Source: Bradyrhizobium lablabi (GTDB lineage: Bacteria; Pseudomonadota; Alphaproteobacteria; Rhizobiales; Xanthobacteraceae). Taken from it: a DNA stretch of 64,000 nucleotides. The DNA is taken from contig NZ_LT670844.1 in the NCBI RefSeq assembly GCF_900141755.1, positions 2,418,001 through 2,482,000 on the forward strand. Direction: 5' to 3'. Every line of letters begins with the position of its first letter. Position 1 is the first letter of the stretch. The notes beneath the pieces are model-generated. The model was not told the origin of the DNA and did no database searches. It saw only the letters and a program-made list of their open reading frames with translations. The translations under genes were made by a program, and so were the position numbers. Shown in pieces: positions 7,408-16,431 of this stretch.

Positions 7408-8001
7408 CTACCGCGCCTTTTCATTCAGTTGATAATTCAGATGCGCCCTCACCGTCGGCCATTCGCTGGCGATGATACTGTAGACGACCGTGTCGCGCAG
7501 CGTGCCGTTCGGCGCGATACTATGGTTGCGCAGGATGCCGTCGAGTTTGGCGCCGAGCCGTTCGATGCCGCGCCGGCTCTGGTGATTGAAGAAATGCGTA
7601 CGGAACTCGACCGCGATGCAGTCGAGCTTTTCGAACGCGTGGCCGAGCAGCAACAATTTGCACTGCGTATTGACTGCGCTGCGCTGCACGCGCTGCGCAT
7701 ACCAGGTCGAGCCGATCTCGACGCGCCGGTTCGGCGCATCGACGTTCATGTAAGTGGTCATCCCGGCGATTTTGCCGTCGGCGTCGAATACGGTCCAGGG
7801 CAGCATCGAGCCCGACGCCTGCAGGCCAAGCCGGCGATCGATTTCCTTGCCCATGTCTTCGGCGCGAGGGACGGACGTGTACCAGAGCTTCCACAGTTCG
7901 CCGTCCTTCACGGCCTCGACGAGCCCATCGACATGATCGTGTGACAGGGGTTTTAGCTGCGCGTAGGGACCGCTCAGCGTTACCGGTTCAGGCCAGGGCA
8001 T
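7408..8001 (-). CDS. GNAT family N-acetyltransferase (RimJ/RimL type)
   Basis: A 197-residue acetyltransferase-like protein. The opening PVTLSGPYAQLKPLSHDHV and the later IAGMTTYMNVDAPNRRVEIGSTWY and NTQCKLLLLGHAFEKL blocks follow the RimJ/RimL pattern of a GNAT fold with acetyl-CoA binding in the second half. Relatives acetylate protein N-termini, amino acids or small amines; the target here is unknown. It precedes the GMC gene with 20 bases between them, so the two may be co-transcribed. A palindromic repeat lies just upstream of its start. Confidence 0.85.
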   Translation of the reverse strand: MPWPEPVTLSGPYAQLKPLSHDHVDGLVEAVKDGELWKLWYTSVPRAEDMGKEIDRRLGLQASGSMLPWTVFDADGKIAGMTTYMNVDAPNRRVEIGSTWYAQRVQRSAVNTQCKLLLLGHAFEKLDCIAVEFRTHFFNHQSRRGIERLGAKLDGILRNHSIAPNGTLRDTVVYSIIASEWPTVRAHLNYQLNEKAR

Positions 8002-8021
8002 TAGTTACTCCGCTTTTTAGG

Positions 8022-8106
8022 CCGTCATTGCGAGGAGCACTTGCGACGAAGCAATCCATTCTGCTTCGCGGTGCGATGGATTGCTTCGCTTCGCTCGCAA
8101 TGACGG
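8022..8106. repeat. Palindromic repeat, CGTCATTGCGAG...GCAATCCATT family
   Basis: Outer ends ccgtcattgcgag and ctcgcaatgacgg are inverted copies; inner arms gaagcaatccattctgcttc and gatggattgcttcgcttc also pair. A second full copy is at 36376-36465 and a fragment at 39370-39399. It lies between two minus-strand genes. Confidence 0.85.
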
Positions 8107-8118
8107 AAACCAATATCA

Positions 8119-9048
8119 TCACTTGTTCAAAAAATTCAGCGGCAGGCCGGGCCGCGCCCAGTCCATCGCAATCAGCTCGCCCTTGCCCGACAGCGTGATG
8201 TAGGCGGTCTTCAGCTCCGGTCCGCCGAAGGCGATGTTGGTGGTGACGCGATCGCCGGTCGGCACCTGCTCGACGACCTTGCCGTCCGGCGCGATCACCG
8301 AGATGCAGCCCGAGATCAAGGTCGCGACGCAGACATTGCCGGAAGCCTCCACCGCGAGCGAATCGAACATCTGGTAACCGCCGAGCCCCGCGATCGGCTT
8401 GCCGCGTTCGCCGCGATAGATGACATCGCGCGGTTTTACCTCACCTGGTGCTGCGAGGTCGAACGCCCACAGCCGCGCCGTCGGCGTCTCCGCGACATAG
8501 ACCGTGTTCTCATCCGGCGACAATCCGATACCGTTGGCCGGCAGCATGCCGAAGGAGCCTTCGACGATCTCCTTCATCCCCGGCTTGATGTAATAGAACG
8601 CGCCGACATCCATGTCGCGGGCACGGCGTTTGCCCAAATCGGTGAACCACAGCCCGCCGTGTCTATCGAATACGAGATCGTTCGGCCCCTTCAGGGGATG
8701 CTCGCCGCATTTGTCGAACAGGGTTTCGACCTTGCCGGTTGAAAGATCGACGCGCTGGATCGAGCCACCGATATATTCGGCAGGCGACGGCGGGCCCGGC
8801 ATCATGGTGCCGCGCGAGGCGGTCCAGCTGAAGCCGCCATTATTGCAGATGTAGCATTTGCCGTCGGGCCCGATCGCGGCGCCATTGGGGCCGCCGGGAA
8901 TTTGCGCGACCACCTGCTTGCGTCCATCCGGCCAGACCCGGGTCAGCCGGCGGCCGCGGATTTCGACCAGCACCACCGATCCGTCCGGCATGACAACCGG
9001 GCCTTCGGGAAATTCAAGACCGGTAGCAAGAACGCGGACATCGGGCAT
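8119..9048 (-). CDS. SMP-30/gluconolactonase/LRE family protein
   Basis: A 309-residue six-bladed beta-propeller lactonase-like protein. The start at 9048 gives MPDVRVLATGLEFPEGPVV and has AGGGG upstream; the open frame reaches 20 codons further but that part is not family-like. The metal-site pieces EFPEGP, GPNDLVFD and GLSPDENTVYVAET are in the usual order. Members hydrolyse sugar or other lactones using a divalent metal. The neighbouring GMC enzyme might supply a lactone-forming oxidation, but that is a guess. It is probably cytoplasmic, as no signal peptide is seen. Confidence 0.9.
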   Translation of the reverse strand: MPDVRVLATGLEFPEGPVVMPDGSVVLVEIRGRRLTRVWPDGRKQVVAQIPGGPNGAAIGPDGKCYICNNGGFSWTASRGTMMPGPPSPAEYIGGSIQRVDLSTGKVETLFDKCGEHPLKGPNDLVFDRHGGLWFTDLGKRRARDMDVGAFYYIKPGMKEIVEGSFGMLPANGIGLSPDENTVYVAETPTARLWAFDLAAPGEVKPRDVIYRGERGKPIAGLGGYQMFDSLAVEASGNVCVATLISGCISVIAPDGKVVEQVPTGDRVTTNIAFGGPELKTAYITLSGKGELIAMDWARPGLPLNFLNK

Positions 9049-9102
9049 TCGGAATCCCCTGGCTTTTCTTGGGCGCCGGCGGATTTGAGGCTCATTCCGC
9101 GC

Positions 9103-9122
9103 GCGCAACGATTTCGTTGCGC
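9103..9122. promoter_or_regulatory. Perfect palindrome upstream of the SMP-30 gene
   Basis: GCGCAACGA-TT-TCGTTGCGC, 9-base arms with a 2-base centre, 54 bases upstream of the SMP-30 start codon. It does not belong to the repeat families seen elsewhere in the window, so a repressor operator is possible. Confidence 0.45.
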
Positions 9123-9194
9123 AACGTTATGACAAAGTCGATATCGCTTGCCAAGCCGACATCAGGCTGCGCAAGGCAGCCCAGCGTTGCGGAT

Positions 9195-9283
9195 ATTCGG
9201 TTCTGATTAGATCAGAACCGAATCGGCTCTAGTCTGACGCGTTTTCTTCACGCGAACCGGTATCCACTTCGCTTGAAAACGCT
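9195..9283. repeat. Composite rhizobial repeat with 13-base perfect hairpin
   Basis: ATTCGGTTCTGAT (9195-9207) pairs perfectly with ATCAGAACCGAAT (9211-9223) around TAG. It is followed by gcgttttcttcacgcgaacc and cacttcgcttgaaaacgctc, imperfectly inverted around accggtatcc. The right edge runs directly into the TAG stop codon of the minus-strand araC-like gene at 9284-9286. Confidence 0.8.
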
Positions 9284-10117
9284 CTACTCCCTGACCGGCA
9301 CCCAGATCTCGAACCCGCCATGGCCGGTGAGCGGATCGAATTTCTCGTCATAGCGCTCGAAGTTGGGGGCATCCGCCGCCTTCAATCCCGATGCCGGCAG
9401 CCAGTGATTCCAGATCGTGTTGACGGTGCGGCGAATGGTGGAGATGTGGTCGCGATGGGTGAAGACCGCGTAGCGCTGTTCGGGAATCCGGACGCTTGCG
9501 AATTCGCGCGGCAGGTCGGAGAAGTCCAAAACTTCGACGCCGGCGATATAGTCGAAATTGCCGGCATCGTCGCCATTGCAGCAGACGCCATAAGCGACTT
9601 TCCCGATCCGCCCCGGGATCCTGTCGACGGATTGATGAAAACGCTGCCACTGGTTGGGAATGCCGGCACCGTTCTCGTGGCTGTAGCGATCGCTGAGACC
9701 GGCGATGAGCAGCGGCTTAGAGGTTTGAAAACGCGGCGGTTGAAGATTGTCTGCGGCGGTTGAATCCATCTGGATCGGCTCCTGAAGCTTGATGTGGTCG
9801 ATACACGCCAGGCTGCGCACCGCCCCGGGCGTCACCCCGAAATGGTCACGGAAGGCGCGGGTGAATGCTTCGTGAGAGCCGTAATCCGCATCCAGCGCCA
9901 AAGTGAGGATGTCGGGCGCGCCGTTCGCGAGCGCACGCGCGGCTTCCGAAAGGCGGCGGGCGCGGACGTAACGCATGACGGAAAACCCGGTCGCCGCGGC
10001 GAACGAGCGGACCATGTGAAAGCGCGAGACGCCGGCGACGCCCGAGATCTCGTCAAGCGTCAACGGGTCGGCCAGATGGCTTTCGATAAACCAGAGCGCC
10101 TTCTGGGCTGGATTCAT
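9284..10117 (-). CDS. AraC family regulator with GyrI-like effector domain
   Basis: A 277-residue regulator with an N-terminal AraC DNA-binding region (two helix-turn-helix units in about 1-105: LTLDEISGVAGVSRFHMVRSF and the later HEAFTRAFRDHFGVTPGAVR) and a C-terminal GyrI/Rob-like small-molecule domain (about 135-277, ending GGFEIWVPVRE). This architecture resembles Rob-type regulators that sense hydrophobic or toxic compounds. The stop codon TAG is immediately followed by a repeat element. The divergent gene is the binding-protein gene at 10389, which it might regulate across a 270-base gap. Confidence 0.9.
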   Translation of the reverse strand: MNPAQKALWFIESHLADPLTLDEISGVAGVSRFHMVRSFAAATGFSVMRYVRARRLSEAARALANGAPDILTLALDADYGSHEAFTRAFRDHFGVTPGAVRSLACIDHIKLQEPIQMDSTAADNLQPPRFQTSKPLLIAGLSDRYSHENGAGIPNQWQRFHQSVDRIPGRIGKVAYGVCCNGDDAGNFDYIAGVEVLDFSDLPREFASVRIPEQRYAVFTHRDHISTIRRTVNTIWNHWLPASGLKAADAPNFERYDEKFDPLTGHGGFEIWVPVRE

Positions 10118-10388
10118 GGACGATGAGCCCTCATGCGAAGCGATGGCCTTTTTACTGGGTCACCTGCGTTGCGTTTGACAGTCCTTGCTCTGATGGCCCG
10201 CTTCACGGAACCGTCACCGGACGCTCTCAGACTGACGCCTTCTTCCACCCCACGGAAAATAGCAGCGCAGCCGTCGCTGGCAACCTCGCCCCGATCATGC
10301 ATACTCAAGCGGCATTCAGCTCCGATGGCTCAACGAGCTGCCCCACAAAGAGGCGGCCTGAGCTTCGGCAATGACGTCAGGGAGGACG

Positions 10389-11621
10389 ATGATGCACTAC
10401 CGTGTCTTGAGCCACGTCAAATCCTTATGCCTTGCGGGAATTTTTGCGGTTGCGGTCGCGAGCAGCGCCGCTACTGCAGAGAAAAAATACGATCCCGGCG
10501 CGACCGATACCGAGATCAAGATCGGCAACATCATGCCGTATTCGGGACCGGCGTCGGCCTATGCGACCATCGGCAAGACCGAAGCCGCCTATTTCAACAA
10601 GCTCAATTCCGAAGGCGGCATCAACGGCCGCAAGATCAATTTCATCAGCTATGACGACGGCTACAGCCCGCCGAAGGCGGTCGAGCAGGCGCGCAAGCTG
10701 GTCGAGTCCGACGAGGTGCTCCTGATCTTCAATCCGCTGGGTACGCCGAGCAACAGCGCGATCGAGAAATACATGAACGCGAAAAAGGTGCCGCAAGTCT
10801 TTGTTTCGAGCGGTGCCGCCAAGTGGAACGATCCGAAGAACTTTCCTTGGACCATCGGCTGGCAGCCCAGCTACCAGGTCGAGGCCCGCATCTATGCCGC
10901 CTACATCCTGAAGAATTATCCCGGCAAGACCATCGGCATTCTCTATCAGAACGACGATTTCGGAAAAGATTACGTGATCGGAATGCACGAAGGATTAGGC
11001 GACCAGGCCAGCAAGCTGATCGTCGTCGAAAGCTCCTATGAGACAACTGCGCCGACGGTGGATTCGCAGGTCGTGCAGATCAAGGGTGCGAACCCCGACA
11101 TTTTCATCAATGTCGCGACGCCGAAATTTGCCGCGCAGGCGATCAAGAAAATCGGCGAGCTGGCCTGGCACCCGGTGCAGTTCCTCACCAACGTGTCGGC
11201 TTCGGTCGGCGGCGTGATGAAGCCGGCCGGCTATGAATTCGACCAGGACATTCTCAGCGCGGCGTATCTGAAGGACCCCAAGGATCCGCAATGGAACAAG
11301 GATCCAGCCATGAACGAATGGCGGGCCTTCATGACGAAGTGGTATCCCGAAGGCGATCAGGAGGACGCGTCGACCACATTCGGCTACGGCGTGGCGAAGG
11401 GACTGGAGCAGGTCTTGAGACAGTGCGGTGACGACCTCACCCGGGAAAACGTCATGCGGCAGGCGGCAAGCCTGAACTTCGAGATCGGCGTGTACCTGCC
11501 CGGCACCAAGATCAAGACCAGCCCGACCGATTTTGCCCCGCTCGAGCAATTGCAGATGATGCGCTTCAAGGGCGAAAGTTGGGATTTGTTCGGACCGATC
11601 ATGTCAGGGGAAAAGAGCTAG
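10389..11621 (+). CDS. Branched-chain-type ABC transporter substrate-binding protein (paralogue 1)
   Basis: About 410 residues with a signal peptide (hydrophobic LCLAGIFAVAVASSAATA, then EKKYDPGATD). It is a type I periplasmic binding protein of the LivJ/amide family: IKIGNIMPYSGPAS, GGINGRKINFISYDDG and RKLVESDEVLLI are typical. ATGs at 10389 and 10392 follow AGGGAGG; either may be used. No permease or ATPase genes are adjacent, so it is an orphan. It is clearly paralogous to the protein at 15202-16431 (long identical stretches such as GGINGRKINF and ARKLVESDEVLLIF), and the two flank the Hcp-like gene. Ligand unknown. Confidence 0.9.
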   Translation: MMHYRVLSHVKSLCLAGIFAVAVASSAATAEKKYDPGATDTEIKIGNIMPYSGPASAYATIGKTEAAYFNKLNSEGGINGRKINFISYDDGYSPPKAVEQARKLVESDEVLLIFNPLGTPSNSAIEKYMNAKKVPQVFVSSGAAKWNDPKNFPWTIGWQPSYQVEARIYAAYILKNYPGKTIGILYQNDDFGKDYVIGMHEGLGDQASKLIVVESSYETTAPTVDSQVVQIKGANPDIFINVATPKFAAQAIKKIGELAWHPVQFLTNVSASVGGVMKPAGYEFDQDILSAAYLKDPKDPQWNKDPAMNEWRAFMTKWYPEGDQEDASTTFGYGVAKGLEQVLRQCGDDLTRENVMRQAASLNFEIGVYLPGTKIKTSPTDFAPLEQLQMMRFKGESWDLFGPIMSGEKS

Positions 11622-11649
11622 GTTCAATTCCAAGGAATTGTGACAATCT

Positions 11650-11688
11650 GGCGCATTCCGTCTGGGCGGAATGCGCCATTTCATTTTT
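11650..11688 (+). terminator. Rho-independent terminator after binding protein 1
   Basis: GGCGCATTCCG (11650-11660), a 6-base loop, and CGGAATGCGCC (11667-11677) form a perfect 11-base stem followed by ATTTCATTTTT. A second short palindrome CAATTCC-AA-GGAATTG lies at 11625-11640. This separates the binding-protein transcript from the Hcp-like gene. Confidence 0.85.
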
Positions 11689-11919: not shown

Positions 11920-14900
11920 ATGGCAAATGCACAGCTGACATATCTTTTGAAGATTGATGGAATAGCCGGCGATTCGACCATCAAGGGTTTTGAGGGCTAC
12001 TTCACCGTCGACGAATTCACCTTCAACGAATTGACCAGGCTGGCGAACGGTGGCGCTGGCGGCAGTTCCGGCAAAGCGCAGTTCGATCCGTTGATGGTCG
12101 ACATTGCCGGATTGCCGCCGGGTCTCGTTACCCTGCTCAAGGACGCAGCTACCGGCAAGCACATCCCGAGCGTGGAGCTCGTCGGATTGAAGCCGGACAA
12201 AGGCACGTTGGAAAAGGTCTACGATCTCACGCTCAACAACGTCACGCTGGCCGGCTATGCTGCGGACGGCAAGCACGATACGGCCCTCGCGTTCGACTAC
12301 AGCAAGGTGACCGAGACCATCACAGGGCAAAATCCTGACGGCTCGCCGAATACTGGCCAGACTTTTAGCTTCGATCTCGCTCATGGCGGCGGCGCGATCG
12401 CCTCGGTCAACCACGACGCGCTCGCAGCCTTTGCCCATTCCCATAACGGGCCCGCGCTGACCTATCTCTTGAAGGTCGATGGGGTGACCGGCGATTCAAC
12501 GATCAAGGGGTATGAGGGCTACTTCACCGTCGACGAATTCACCTTCAACGAACTGACCAAACTGGCCAATGGTGGCGCTGGCGGCAGTTCCGGCAAGGCG
12601 CAGTTCGATCCATTGATGGTCGACATCGCCGGATTGTCACCGGGTCTCGTCACCCTGCTCAAGGACGCGGCCACCGGCAAACACATTCCGAGCGTGGAGC
12701 TCGTCGGCTTGAAACCGGACAAAGGCGCGCTGGACAAGGTCTACGATCTCACGCTCAACAATGTCACGCTGGCCGGCTATGCCGCTGACGGCAAGCACGA
12801 TACTGCACTTGCGTTCGACTACAGCAAGTTGACCGAGACCATCACAGGCCAGAAGCCCGACGGCTCGCCCGACACGGGCCAGACCTTTACCTTCGATCTT
12901 GCCCGTGGCGGCGGCTCGCTCGCCCCGGTCAACCACGACACCCTCGCAGCCTTTGCCCATTCCCATGTTGGGCCCGCGCTGACCTATCTCTTGAAGGTCG
13001 ATGGGGTGACCGGCGATTCAACGATCAAGGGCTATGAGGGCTACTTCACCGTTGACGAATTCACCTTCAACGAACTGACCAGGCTGGCCAATGGTGGCGC
13101 TGGCGGCAGTGCCGGCAAGGCGCAGTTCGATCCGTTGATGGTCGACATCGCCGGATTGTCGCCGGGTCTCGTTACCCTGCTCAAGGACGCCGCTACCGGC
13201 AAGCACATCCCGAGCGTGGAGCTCGTCGGATTGAAGCCGGACAAAGGCACGCTGGAAAAGGTCTACGATCTCACACTCAACAATGTCACGCTGGCCGGCT
13301 ACGCCGCTGACAGCGGCCACGATACGGCACTCGCCTTCGACTACACCAAGCTGACCGAGACCATCCAAGGACAGAAGCCTGACGGCTCGCTCGACACGGG
13401 CCAGACCTTTAGCTTCGATCTTACCCACAATGGCGGCTCGCTCGCCCCGGTCAACCACGACACCCTCGCGGCCTTTGCCCATTCCCATATTGGGCCTGCA
13501 CTGACCTATCTTCTGAAAGTCGATGGGGTAACCGGCGATTCAAAGGTCGCCGGCTATGAGGGCTACTTCACGGTCGACGAGTTCACTTTCAATGAATTGA
13601 CCAAGCTCGCCAATGGTGGCGCTGGCGGCAGTGCCGGCAAGGCGCAGTTCGATCCGCTGATGGTCGACATCGCAGGATTGTCACCGGGTCTCGTCACCCT
13701 GCTCAAGGATGCCGCTACCGGCAAGCATATCCCGAGCGTAGAACTCGTCGGCTTGAAACCGGACAAAGGCGCGTTGGAAAAGGTCTACGATCTCACGCTC
13801 AACAATGTCGCGCTGGCCGGCTATGCCGCCGACGGCGGCCACGATACGGCGCTTGCCTTCGACTTCACCAAGCTGACCGAGACCATCACAGGCCAGAAGC
13901 CCGACGGCTCGCTCGATACGGGACAGACGTTCACGTTTGATCTTGCCCACAATGGCGGCTCGATCGCCCCCGTCAACCACGACACCCTCGCAGCCTTTGC
14001 CCATTCCCATGTTGAGCCCGCGCTGACCTATCTTTTGAAGATCGATGGAGCGACCGGCGATTCAAAGGTCCACGGCTATGAGGGCTACTTCACCGTCGAC
14101 GAGTTCACCTTCAATGAGCTGACCAAGCTTGCGAATGGTGGTGCTGGCGCCGTTGCCGGCAAGGCCCAGTTCGATCCGTTGACGGTCGATATCGCAGGAT
14201 TGTCGCCGGGTCTCGTTACCCTGCTCAAGGATGCGGCCACCGGAAAGCAAATCCCGAGCGTGGAACTCGTCGGCCTGAAGCCGTCCGGCGACGGCCCGCC
14301 GCAGAAAGTCTACGATCTCACGCTCAACCACGTGACGCTGGCCGGCTACGCCGCTGACAGCGGCCACGATACGGCACTCGCGTTCGACTTCAGCAAGTTG
14401 ACCGAGACCATCACAGGCCAAAAGCCGGACGGCTCGCCCGACACGGGCCAGACGTTTACCTTCGATCTTGCCCACAATGGCGGCTCGATCGCCCCCGTCA
14501 ACCACGACGCCCTCGCGGCCTTTGCTCATTCCCATGTCGGGCCCGCGCTGACCTATCTCTTGAAGGTCGATGGGGTAACCGGCGATTCGATGATCAAGGG
14601 CTATCAGGGCGACTTCACCGTTGACGAGTTCGCTTTCAACGAACTGACCAGGCTGAGCAACGGGGGCGCCGGCGGCAGTTCCAGCAAAGCGCAGTTCGAT
14701 CCGCTGATGGTCGATATCGCAGGATCATCGCCCGGTCTCGTCACCTTGCTCAAGGATGCCGCCACCGGCAAGCATATCCAGAGCGTAGAACTCGTGGGCT
14801 TGAAGTTGGGCGAAGGCACGCCGCAGAAGGTTTACGATCTCACACTCAACAATGTCACGCTCGCCGGCTACGCCGCCGATAGCGGCCACGATACGGCACT

Positions 14901-15078
14901 CGCCTTCGACTATGCCAAAGTGACCGAAACCATCAAAGGGCAGAAACCTGACGGTTCGCTCGACGCGGGCCAGACGTTTAGCTTCGATCTTGTCCACCAT
15001 GGCGGCTCGATCGCCCCGGTCAACCACGACGCGCTTGCGGCCTTTGCCCATGCTCATGACGGATTTTTCATGGTGTGA
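11920..15078 (+). CDS. Six-domain tandem Hcp-like (type VI tube protein family) protein
   Basis: A 1052-residue protein made of six consecutive copies of one domain of about 174 residues, starting near residues 6, 180, 354, 528, 702 and 877. Each copy reads YLLKIDGxxGDS, EGYFTVDEFTFNEL, a glycine-rich loop GGAGGSSGKAQFD, the helix SPGLVTLLKDAATGKHIPSV, KVYDLTLNNVTLAGYAAD, LAFDYSKLTETITGQKPDGS and TGQTFTFDL, the order and spacing of the Hcp beta-barrel. Copies are joined by a linker NHDxLAAFAHSHxGPA. There is no signal peptide and no toxin-like extension; the chain ends eleven residues after the last linker's NHDALAAF. Copies 1-5 have the same length and copy 5 has one extra residue (PSGDGPPQ in place of PDKGTLEK). 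Ordinary Hcp is about 160-180 residues and assembles as a hexameric ring, so six copies in one chain suggest a covalent ring. No other type VI gene is visible. Family is well supported; ring formation and function are inference. The 231 bases upstream are AT-richer and contain AAAAATTTTTTT. Confidence 0.85.
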   Translation: MANAQLTYLLKIDGIAGDSTIKGFEGYFTVDEFTFNELTRLANGGAGGSSGKAQFDPLMVDIAGLPPGLVTLLKDAATGKHIPSVELVGLKPDKGTLEKVYDLTLNNVTLAGYAADGKHDTALAFDYSKVTETITGQNPDGSPNTGQTFSFDLAHGGGAIASVNHDALAAFAHSHNGPALTYLLKVDGVTGDSTIKGYEGYFTVDEFTFNELTKLANGGAGGSSGKAQFDPLMVDIAGLSPGLVTLLKDAATGKHIPSVELVGLKPDKGALDKVYDLTLNNVTLAGYAADGKHDTALAFDYSKLTETITGQKPDGSPDTGQTFTFDLARGGGSLAPVNHDTLAAFAHSHVGPALTYLLKVDGVTGDSTIKGYEGYFTVDEFTFNELTRLANGGAGGSAGKAQFDPLMVDIAGLSPGLVTLLKDAATGKHIPSVELVGLKPDKGTLEKVYDLTLNNVTLAGYAADSGHDTALAFDYTKLTETIQGQKPDGSLDTGQTFSFDLTHNGGSLAPVNHDTLAAFAHSHIGPALTYLLKVDGVTGDSKVAGYEGYFTVDEFTFNELTKLANGGAGGSAGKAQFDPLMVDIAGLSPGLVTLLKDAATGKHIPSVELVGLKPDKGALEKVYDLTLNNVALAGYAADGGHDTALAFDFTKLTETITGQKPDGSLDTGQTFTFDLAHNGGSIAPVNHDTLAAFAHSHVEPALTYLLKIDGATGDSKVHGYEGYFTVDEFTFNELTKLANGGAGAVAGKAQFDPLTVDIAGLSPGLVTLLKDAATGKQIPSVELVGLKPSGDGPPQKVYDLTLNHVTLAGYAADSGHDTALAFDFSKLTETITGQKPDGSPDTGQTFTFDLAHNGGSIAPVNHDALAAFAHSHVGPALTYLLKVDGVTGDSMIKGYQGDFTVDEFAFNELTRLSNGGAGGSSSKAQFDPLMVDIAGSSPGLVTLLKDAATGKHIQSVELVGLKLGEGTPQKVYDLTLNNVTLAGYAADSGHDTALAFDYAKVTETIKGQKPDGSLDAGQTFSFDLVHHGGSIAPVNHDALAAFAHAHDGFFMV
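11935..15075 (+). repeat. Six tandem coding repeats of 522 bp
   Basis: Using the codon CTG of LTYLLK as the marker, copies begin at 11935, 12457, 12979, 13501, 14023 and 14548: four exact 522-base steps and one of 525. Long blocks are identical in DNA between copies, including at silent sites, which points to recent duplication or gene conversion. Confidence 0.95.
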
Positions 15079-15201: not shown

Positions 15202-16431
15202 ATGGCGCGCACCCGCGGCATTGTACTGGCGTTTGTCCTGCTCGGCCTTTCATTTAGTATCGATCCTGCCGCGGCGCAGAAGAAATACGACCTCGGTGCC
15301 AGCGACAGCGAGATCAAAATCGGCAACATCATGCCCTATAGCGGGCCGCTGTCGGCCTACGCGCTGATCGGCCGCACGCAGGAGGCCTTTTTCAGGAAGC
15401 TCAACGCCGAGGGCGGCATCAACGGCCGAAAGATCAACTTCGTTTCCTATGACGACGGTTTCAGCCCGGCGAAGACCGTGGAGCAGGCACGCAAGCTCGT
15501 GGAAAGCGATGAGGTGCTGCTGATCTTCCAGAGCCTTGGCACGCCAACCAACAACGCGATTCAGAAATACCTGAATGACAAGAAAGTGCCGCAGCTCTTC
15601 GTCGCCACCGGCGCCACCAAATTCGGCGATCCGAAGAATTTCCCCTGGACCATGGGCTGGCAGCCCACCTACCAGACCGAGGGGCGGATCTACGCAAAAT
15701 ACATTCTGCAAAACCTGCCTCAGGGAAAAATCGGCGTCCTCTACCAGAACGACGATTCCGGCCGCGACTATCTCAAGGGCCTCAAAGACGGGCTCGGCGC
15801 AGAGGCGGCCGCACGGATGATCGTTGGCGAAATCCCCTATGAGCCCACGGACCCTACGGTCGAACGTCAGATCGTGACGTTGAAAACCCTGGGCGCCGAT
15901 ATCTTTTTCAACGAGGCTTCGCCGAAATTTGCCGCCCAGGCGATCCGGAAGGCGGCCGAGATCGGCTGGAAGCCCACATTGTTCCTTGCCAGCATCTCGA
16001 ATTCCGTCGGCTCGGTGCTGAGGCCCGCCGGACTGGAGAACTCGAAGGGCATCTTGTCGACCAACTATTTGAAGGACCCGACCGACCCCACCTGGAAGGA
16101 CGATCCCGCCATCAAGGAGTGGGCCAACTTCATGGACAAGTATTTCCCGGAAGGCGACAAGACCAGCACCTTCAGCGTCTATGGCTATCTGACCGCGCAG
16201 ACCATGGTTCAGGTGCTGAAGCAATGCGGCGACGAACTGACCCGCGAGAACATCATGCGACAGGCCGCCAATCTCCGAGATTTCGAACTCGGATTATTGC
16301 TGCCGGGCATCAGGATCAACACCAGCCCGACTGACTATTTCCCGGTCGAGCAGATGCAGATGTCGCGATTCAACGGTGAACATGGCGAGTTGTTCGGCGC
16401 CGCGATCGGCGGCGAGATCGGGACCCAGTAG
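15202..16431 (+). CDS. Branched-chain-type ABC transporter substrate-binding protein (paralogue 2)
   Basis: A 409-residue type I periplasmic binding protein with a signal peptide ending near SFSIDPAAAQ, just before KKYDLGASDSEIKIGN. The ATG at 15202 follows AAGGGAGG. It is a close paralogue of the protein at 10389-11621 over its whole length, with matching blocks such as NIMPYSGP, VEQARKLVESDEVLLIF, DPKNFPWT and SPKFAAQAI. It lies 123 bases after the Hcp-like gene on the same strand with no clear terminator between, so co-transcription is possible. No transporter membrane or ATPase genes are nearby. Ligand unknown. Confidence 0.9.
   Translation: MARTRGIVLAFVLLGLSFSIDPAAAQKKYDLGASDSEIKIGNIMPYSGPLSAYALIGRTQEAFFRKLNAEGGINGRKINFVSYDDGFSPAKTVEQARKLVESDEVLLIFQSLGTPTNNAIQKYLNDKKVPQLFVATGATKFGDPKNFPWTMGWQPTYQTEGRIYAKYILQNLPQGKIGVLYQNDDSGRDYLKGLKDGLGAEAAARMIVGEIPYEPTDPTVERQIVTLKTLGADIFFNEASPKFAAQAIRKAAEIGWKPTLFLASISNSVGSVLRPAGLENSKGILSTNYLKDPTDPTWKDDPAIKEWANFMDKYFPEGDKTSTFSVYGYLTAQTMVQVLKQCGDELTRENIMRQAANLRDFELGLLLPGIRINTSPTDYFPVEQMQMSRFNGEHGELFGAAIGGEIGTQ

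Follow-up and report, generated by a model that had tools for sequence, protein, structure and literature searches.

A six-domain Hcp protein of Bradyrhizobium lablabi as a candidate exported single-chain ring

Six-fold rings of Hcp and tail-tube proteins normally need six chains, or three in some phages; according to the available text of PMC10034513, two-domain phage tube proteins form their rings as trimers. Here we describe an open reading frame (ORF), labeled hcp6, in which six Hcp domains lie in one chain of 1052 amino acids (aa). It runs from ATG to stop at 11920..15078, stop included, on the plus strand of the window, by which we mean the whole stretch analyzed (64,000 nucleotides of contig NZ_LT670844.1 of Bradyrhizobium lablabi, likely a soil bacterium). 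We favor, with moderate confidence, the reading that hcp6 encodes an exported single-chain Hcp ring acting as a surface or matrix scaffold outside type VI secretion. Formation of a single-chain ring by hcp6 appears fairly likely, while the scaffold role, to which the modules fused in relatives point, is held with moderate confidence.

The first-pass annotation of the window had read six Hcp domains in one chain, and this is borne out by six units, each of which passes the PF05638 profile on its own. As delimited by repeat units and PF05638, domains 1 to 5, each with its following linker, comprise residues 6-179 (11935..12456), 180-353 (12457..12978), 354-527 (12979..13500), 528-701 (13501..14022) and 702-876 (14023..14547), and domain 6 with the C-terminal tail comprises residues 877-1052 (14548..15075), all on the plus strand. 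The units begin at residues 6, 180, 354, 528, 702 and 877, measure 174, 174, 174, 174, 175 and 176 residues, and share 79-92% identity pairwise. In a Pfam search PF05638 (T6SS_HCP) matched the protein in six separate stretches (whole-protein E 5.5e-79), and in the genome search each stretch alone scored 43-52 bits against a curated cut-off of 23.5. Across all 15 domain pairs the ratio of nonsynonymous to synonymous divergence (dN/dS) is 0.12-0.24 and the synonymous divergence (dS) 0.23-0.71, so the repeats did not arise by recent duplication and are under selection; purifying selection acts on each domain.

Three protein searches gave 150 proteins, P0001 being the hcp6 protein itself, within a length window of 578-1841 aa that fits about 4 to 10 domains, so that length does not impose the peak at six; only the best 7999 candidates by shared words were scored, a selection that may favor repetitive proteins. 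By domain profile, 33 of the 150 carry six full domains and none carries more. Under a loose completeness rule (n = 150), 30 carry one domain, 10 two, 3 three, 2 four and 2 five, and under a stricter rule, asking for a start methionine and the expected type of C-terminal tail, 27 carry six, two carry five and ten carry fewer (seven singles, one double and two triples). Six of these ten lie on contigs of 863-3017 bases, too short for the roughly 3.1 kb of a six-domain gene, two are without a given contig and two lie on longer contigs; for all 33 six-domain proteins the longest contig is at least 4 kb. P0118 (three domains) and P0132 (two) have one common C-terminus, a difference such as repeat collapse in assembly would give. 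Clear exceptions on adequate contigs, which count against a ring, are P0019 and P0024 with five domains, P0030 with three (6.6-kb contig) and P0055 with one (32-kb contig). The domains of P0019 group with domains one, five and six of P0008, as though one middle unit had been lost, and the count in P0024 looks genuine because its five domains have diverged from each other. Mixed cases are P0044 (two domains, tail seemingly frame-shifted), P0135 (four, cut within the last domain) and genome G461, with two weak and two canonical Hcp domains at locus L108. The L108 frame (7956-10691, 911 aa) holds two divergent Hcp-like copies, cadherin/immunoglobulin-type (Ig) domains and then two Hcp domains identical by eye, and was possibly shaped by repeat collapse. 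Free variation in copy number, which had been named beforehand as an argument against a ring-specific role, is thus mostly not found, and six domains are found again at identities of 20-41% and with a variety of partner modules.

Long-contig relatives with seemingly cut or frame-shifted ends (e.g., P0021, P0023, P0075, P0112, P0117, P0125 and P0146) were left out by judgment and not mended; in many (P0021, P0023, P0117, P0125 and others) the frame is broken inside the repeat block, by decay or by assembly error. In all, 70 of the 150 appear to be broken or incomplete and were excluded from the copy-number counts, a proportion that lends something to the idea that hcp6 is itself an assembly artifact or a decaying pseudogene. 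We consider that idea to have a negligible chance of being right, given a genome in a single 7.91-Mb contig, an open frame, dN/dS of 0.12-0.24 with dS up to 0.71 between repeats, and the occurrence of the same arrangement in other records.

A tree built on 133 domains of 23 proteins bears on how the count came to be kept. In six proteins with six domains (P0020, P0029, P0031, P0033, P0042 and P0137), as well as in P0024 with five and P0030 with three, the domains group into a clade exclusive to the protein, with a support of 0.80 for P0031 and at least 0.99 for the others, while those of P0027 and P0028 pair position by position. Domains are thus often closer to their chain-mates than to the same position elsewhere, which qualifies the recurrence of six, and from this clustering the repeats appear homogenized or re-amplified in several lineages. 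Such turnover would be expected to alter the copy number, yet six is usually found, and this retention is the strongest argument that the sequences offer for a structural constraint. A rival reading takes hcp6 for an open string of beads, with six adhesin-like repeats in an extended secreted protein without a ring. Repeat number varies in adhesins, and cadherin/Ig and RTX modules are usually extended. The fusion of the block to such modules in relatives and the few relatives with 5, 3 or 1 domains agree with a string and weigh against a ring, but among 33 six-domain proteins none exceeds six, and the predicted structures described below score well over about 1050 residues, with domain pairs that superpose on tail-tube pairs. 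We therefore regard the open string as unlikely.

Two single-chain AlphaFold models of about 1050 residues reached predicted template modeling scores (pTM) of 0.77 and 0.75. In both, neighboring domains superpose on the two-domain tail-tube proteins of phages T5 and P74-26, and the alignments to 8ed0_A and 9iny_A each span two adjacent model domains. The hcp6 domains are thus predicted to take the Hcp fold, with neighbors placed as in a ring. Seven of the 50 alignments listed link domain 1 to domain 6 over 171-190 residues, beyond what one domain could supply, and 9ndy_E spans domain 1 to domain 6 in the second model; these are weak alignments, and they suggest that domain 6 may close on domain 1. 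The ring put forward in the first-pass annotation is accordingly strengthened by the mostly-six count, by the within-protein clustering with six kept and by the neighbor geometry of two models, with closure itself only indirectly supported; the full-chain AlphaFold check that it had called for returned tube-ring geometry between neighbors, the pairing of domains 1 and 6 coming from the weak alignments. The chain might alternatively not close on itself, with domains of two or more chains forming rings or a polymer, for example from three-domain halves. The trimeric two-domain phage tube proteins (PMC10034513, in its available text) offer a precedent for this and the models were of one chain only, both of which tell against self-closure; the prevailing count of six rather than two or three, and the weak domain 1-to-6 alignments, speak for it, and we hold the multichain assembly to be quite unlikely. 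The Gly-rich loop of domain 1 (residues 41-50, 12040..12069, plus strand) has a per-residue confidence (pLDDT) below 50, and low-confidence segments occur at the equivalent place in domains 2-6. In simulations of the P74-26 tube a loop orders only once another ring binds, as stated in the available text of PMC10034513; the Gly-rich loops of hcp6 may correspond to it by analogy, and stacking of the proposed rings is possible.

The genome, searched as the single 7.91-Mb contig, gave 0 matches each for TssB, TssC and VgrG, TssK and other tss genes not having been searched, and no Hcp (PF05638) besides hcp6; the TssB, TssC, VgrG and Hcp searches each gave matches in an E. coli control. The earlier statement that the 64 kb hold no tss gene thus extends to the whole genome for TssB, TssC, VgrG and a second Hcp, and it follows from these absences that hcp6 is not an ordinary type VI tube. 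Membership of hcp6 in a type VI system was rejected on the same absent matches (TssK and other core genes not searched). That hcp6 is a left-over or alternative tube part, a decoy or a cargo carrier of such a system is very unlikely, with selection on hcp6 intact and relatives that bear type I substrate-type modules instead; the nanocompartment, decoy and cargo-adaptor suggestions of the first reading found no specific evidence. PF05638 matches occur in 32 of 146 same-genus genomes, most commonly as a 165-aa protein with 141-146 bits (17 rows); the other rows, fragments excluded, score 73-134 bits, against only 43-52 for the hcp6 domains.

Pointers to export come from the partners of the six-domain block. 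The block can stand alone or follow cadherin/Ig domains (P0020). In other relatives it precedes further modules: an Ig-type domain with RTX repeats (P0033), Ig domains with a serralysin C-terminal domain (P0034) or a PKD domain (P0042). At locus L109 (734-6724) of G149, from another genus of the family, exactly six Hcp domains in a protein of 1996 aa are followed by a Hint_2 domain and then a glycosyltransferase-like region. This arrangement is unusual, and the protein is longer than the protein search window. P0042 and P0043 share 20-21% identity with the hcp6 protein; over their six domains the PF05638 scores add up to a very high 609 and 580 bits, and their N-termini seem reminiscent of planctomycete exported proteins. 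The hcp6 protein itself, of 109 kDa, is an acidic chain devoid of Cys, with no toxin domain in a Pfam scan and no hydrophobic N-terminal stretch by inspection, in keeping with the first reading on both points, and Pfam found no RTX nonapeptide repeats in it, though P0033 has them.

The C-terminus offers a candidate type I secretion motif, recognized by inspection: DGFFMV (15058..15075, plus strand), acidic and then hydrophobic residues. The protein ends HDGFFMV and its relatives end HDVFLV, GDYFIT, SDFLFT or DFVL. The available part of PMC2642768 describes an acidic-hydrophobic C-terminus for one class of type I substrates, and also cites work in which such an end proved not essential. The genome has six HlyD-family genes above cut-off and encodes a Cys-free protein of 3846 aa with cadherin/Ig domains that ends SDFIFHV and is not linked to an exporter. 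Two points weigh against this route: the lack of a recognized exporter gene among the seven hcp6 neighbors scanned, and the absence of an hcp6-like end from the listed Cys-free acidic ORFs of at least 200 aa in six type I exporter regions. Candidate substrates beside the exporters of this genome end WHT, PHA, HHTL or SMLS, and because these ends differ the secretion route rests on VCBS/RTX-type relatives and on the unlinked 3846-aa giant. The one- and two-domain relatives P0079, P0080 and P0133 end QPHA, like an exporter-linked TPHA protein of this genome. At L049 (12738-15881, minus strand) of the same genome, a Cys-free protein of 1047 aa with three repeats by eye has LATPHA as its C-terminus and is encoded next to a type I exporter pair. 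Judged from sequence, export of the hcp6 protein by type I secretion is probable; neither this route nor the adhesin/RTX-type modules joined to the block in relatives figured in the first reading.

We propose that the six Hcp-fold domains of one chain would lie next to one another as in a tube ring and that the chain would form one closed pseudohexameric ring, its covalent continuity setting the subunit number and letting a single molecule make the ring. The chain would leave the cell unfolded through one of the type I systems of the genome, by way of its C-terminal signal, and fold into the ring outside, so that a single chain might avoid the need to bring six dilute subunits together there. 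The ring would then serve as a surface or matrix scaffold, bearing adhesin-type modules in some relatives. More tentatively, and with rather less than even confidence, we envisage a class of exported, type VI-independent Hcp rings in which the six-domain cassette is portable, occurring by itself or fused to adhesin, RTX, PKD or Hint modules, and in which rings may stack into extracellular tubes or hold ligands bound within the lumen. Both the Hcp fold and the logic of the pseudohexamer are known already; we found no account of a complete ring made by one chain outside type VI, nor of a natural six-domain Hcp among the open-access papers listed. According to its available text, PMC8262886 excluded Hcp genes carrying a PEP-CTERM sorting signal ahead of tree building. 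If the reading is right, a natural chain with all six subunits is the end point of a fusion series and a ring detached from contractile injection systems, genes annotated as type VI Hcp can encode secreted structural proteins, and hcp6 is a ready single-chain ring for direct study of closure, subunit asymmetry and stacking.

The six-domain form is rare in isolate-type collections, occurring in 1 of the 146 same-genus genomes, that of hcp6. P0001 matched 20 of 391 family genomes, in which the loci examined were of six domains (L109), mixed (L108) or single (L061 and L063), and an 847-aa frame in G240 was also among the matches. Besides hcp6, no listed frame exceeded 332 aa in the class sample (385 genomes) or 401 aa in the order sample (397 genomes), and two very long frames in the phylum sample (398 genomes; G992 and G138) match only profile positions past 1000; the family, order and phylum searches scored at most two candidates per genome. 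A one-domain scan of genome contigs returned a single locus, L037, a broken stretch of 43% identity in a Bradyrhizobium record. P0001 had no match in the plasmid collection, while P0034 matched 174 plasmid records, of which the 20 listed were Hcp, Ig-like, adhesin or unannotated stretches, none covering 80% of the query. Viral contigs, searched with an alignment, gave 32 pattern matches and no relative among them, the phage record collection not having been searched; carriage of hcp6 by a mobile element was rejected on these plasmid and viral results.

The locus itself is unremarkable in composition, with a GC content of 0.60 and third-position GC (GC3) of 0.76 in hcp6 and 0.58-0.63 and 0.77-0.81 in four neighboring genes. 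Two periplasmic binding-protein genes, mutually 60% identical, flank hcp6 (10371-11621 and 15202-16431), which looks inserted between these tandem paralogues. A terminator-like hairpin of 13 pairs with a T-rich tail (11649..11678, plus strand) lies between the upstream one and hcp6; the consensus scan gave 4 sites in the stretch against 3.5 expected by chance, this stem being the longest by far. Lying behind it, hcp6 is probably transcribed separately. The seven neighbors scanned comprise a SMP-30/gluconolactonase-like protein, an AraC-type regulator, the two binding proteins, a small protein with weak coiled-coil hits, a cupin and a GST-like protein, and no phage genes were seen among the neighbors examined.

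The linkers between the domains (e.g., residues 339-353) hold an NHDxLAAFAHSH-like motif, which makes six His-rich sites per chain with the C-terminal AHAH counted in; a metal site there is conceivable. An AA9 lytic polysaccharide monooxygenase profile reached 45 bits against the full-length protein but, against one unit, 13.9 bits (E 0.052), the AA9-like segment consisting of linker and first strand (residues 164-210 and equivalents). The score collapses on a single unit, so the likeness is probably due to chance summed over repeats. Other odd Pfam and NCBIfam matches to the whole protein were likewise read as repeat sums, those to DUF5624 and ribosomal L5 vanishing on one unit.

Sliding clamps differ from hcp6 in fold, and each of their rings takes at least two chains. 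The available text of PMC10034513 compares those of DNA polymerase as rings evolved by domain duplication. With type I RTX/VCBS-type adhesins the hcp6 protein shares a Cys-poor, acidic chain and an acidic-hydrophobic C-terminus, and its relatives share the cadherin/Ig, RTX and serralysin C-terminal modules, whereas the hcp6 protein is without an RTX or Ig domain and the repeat number of the block is mostly fixed. The tail-tube proteins of T5 (pb6) and P74-26 likewise have tandem tube domains in a chain, with alike pseudohexamer neighbor geometry in the predicted models, but no phage genes lie among the hcp6 neighbors examined, no viral-contig relative was found, and their rings take three chains where hcp6 has all six domains in one. 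With type VI Hcp the PF05638 domain is common to both, hcp6 having six stretches above cut-off; the genome of hcp6 is without a sheath (TssB/TssC) or spike (VgrG) match, its domains score 43-52 bits each against 141-146 for the commonest same-genus Hcp (165 aa), and in place of a single-domain, homohexamerizing subunit of about 160 aa it has six domains in one chain of 1052 aa.
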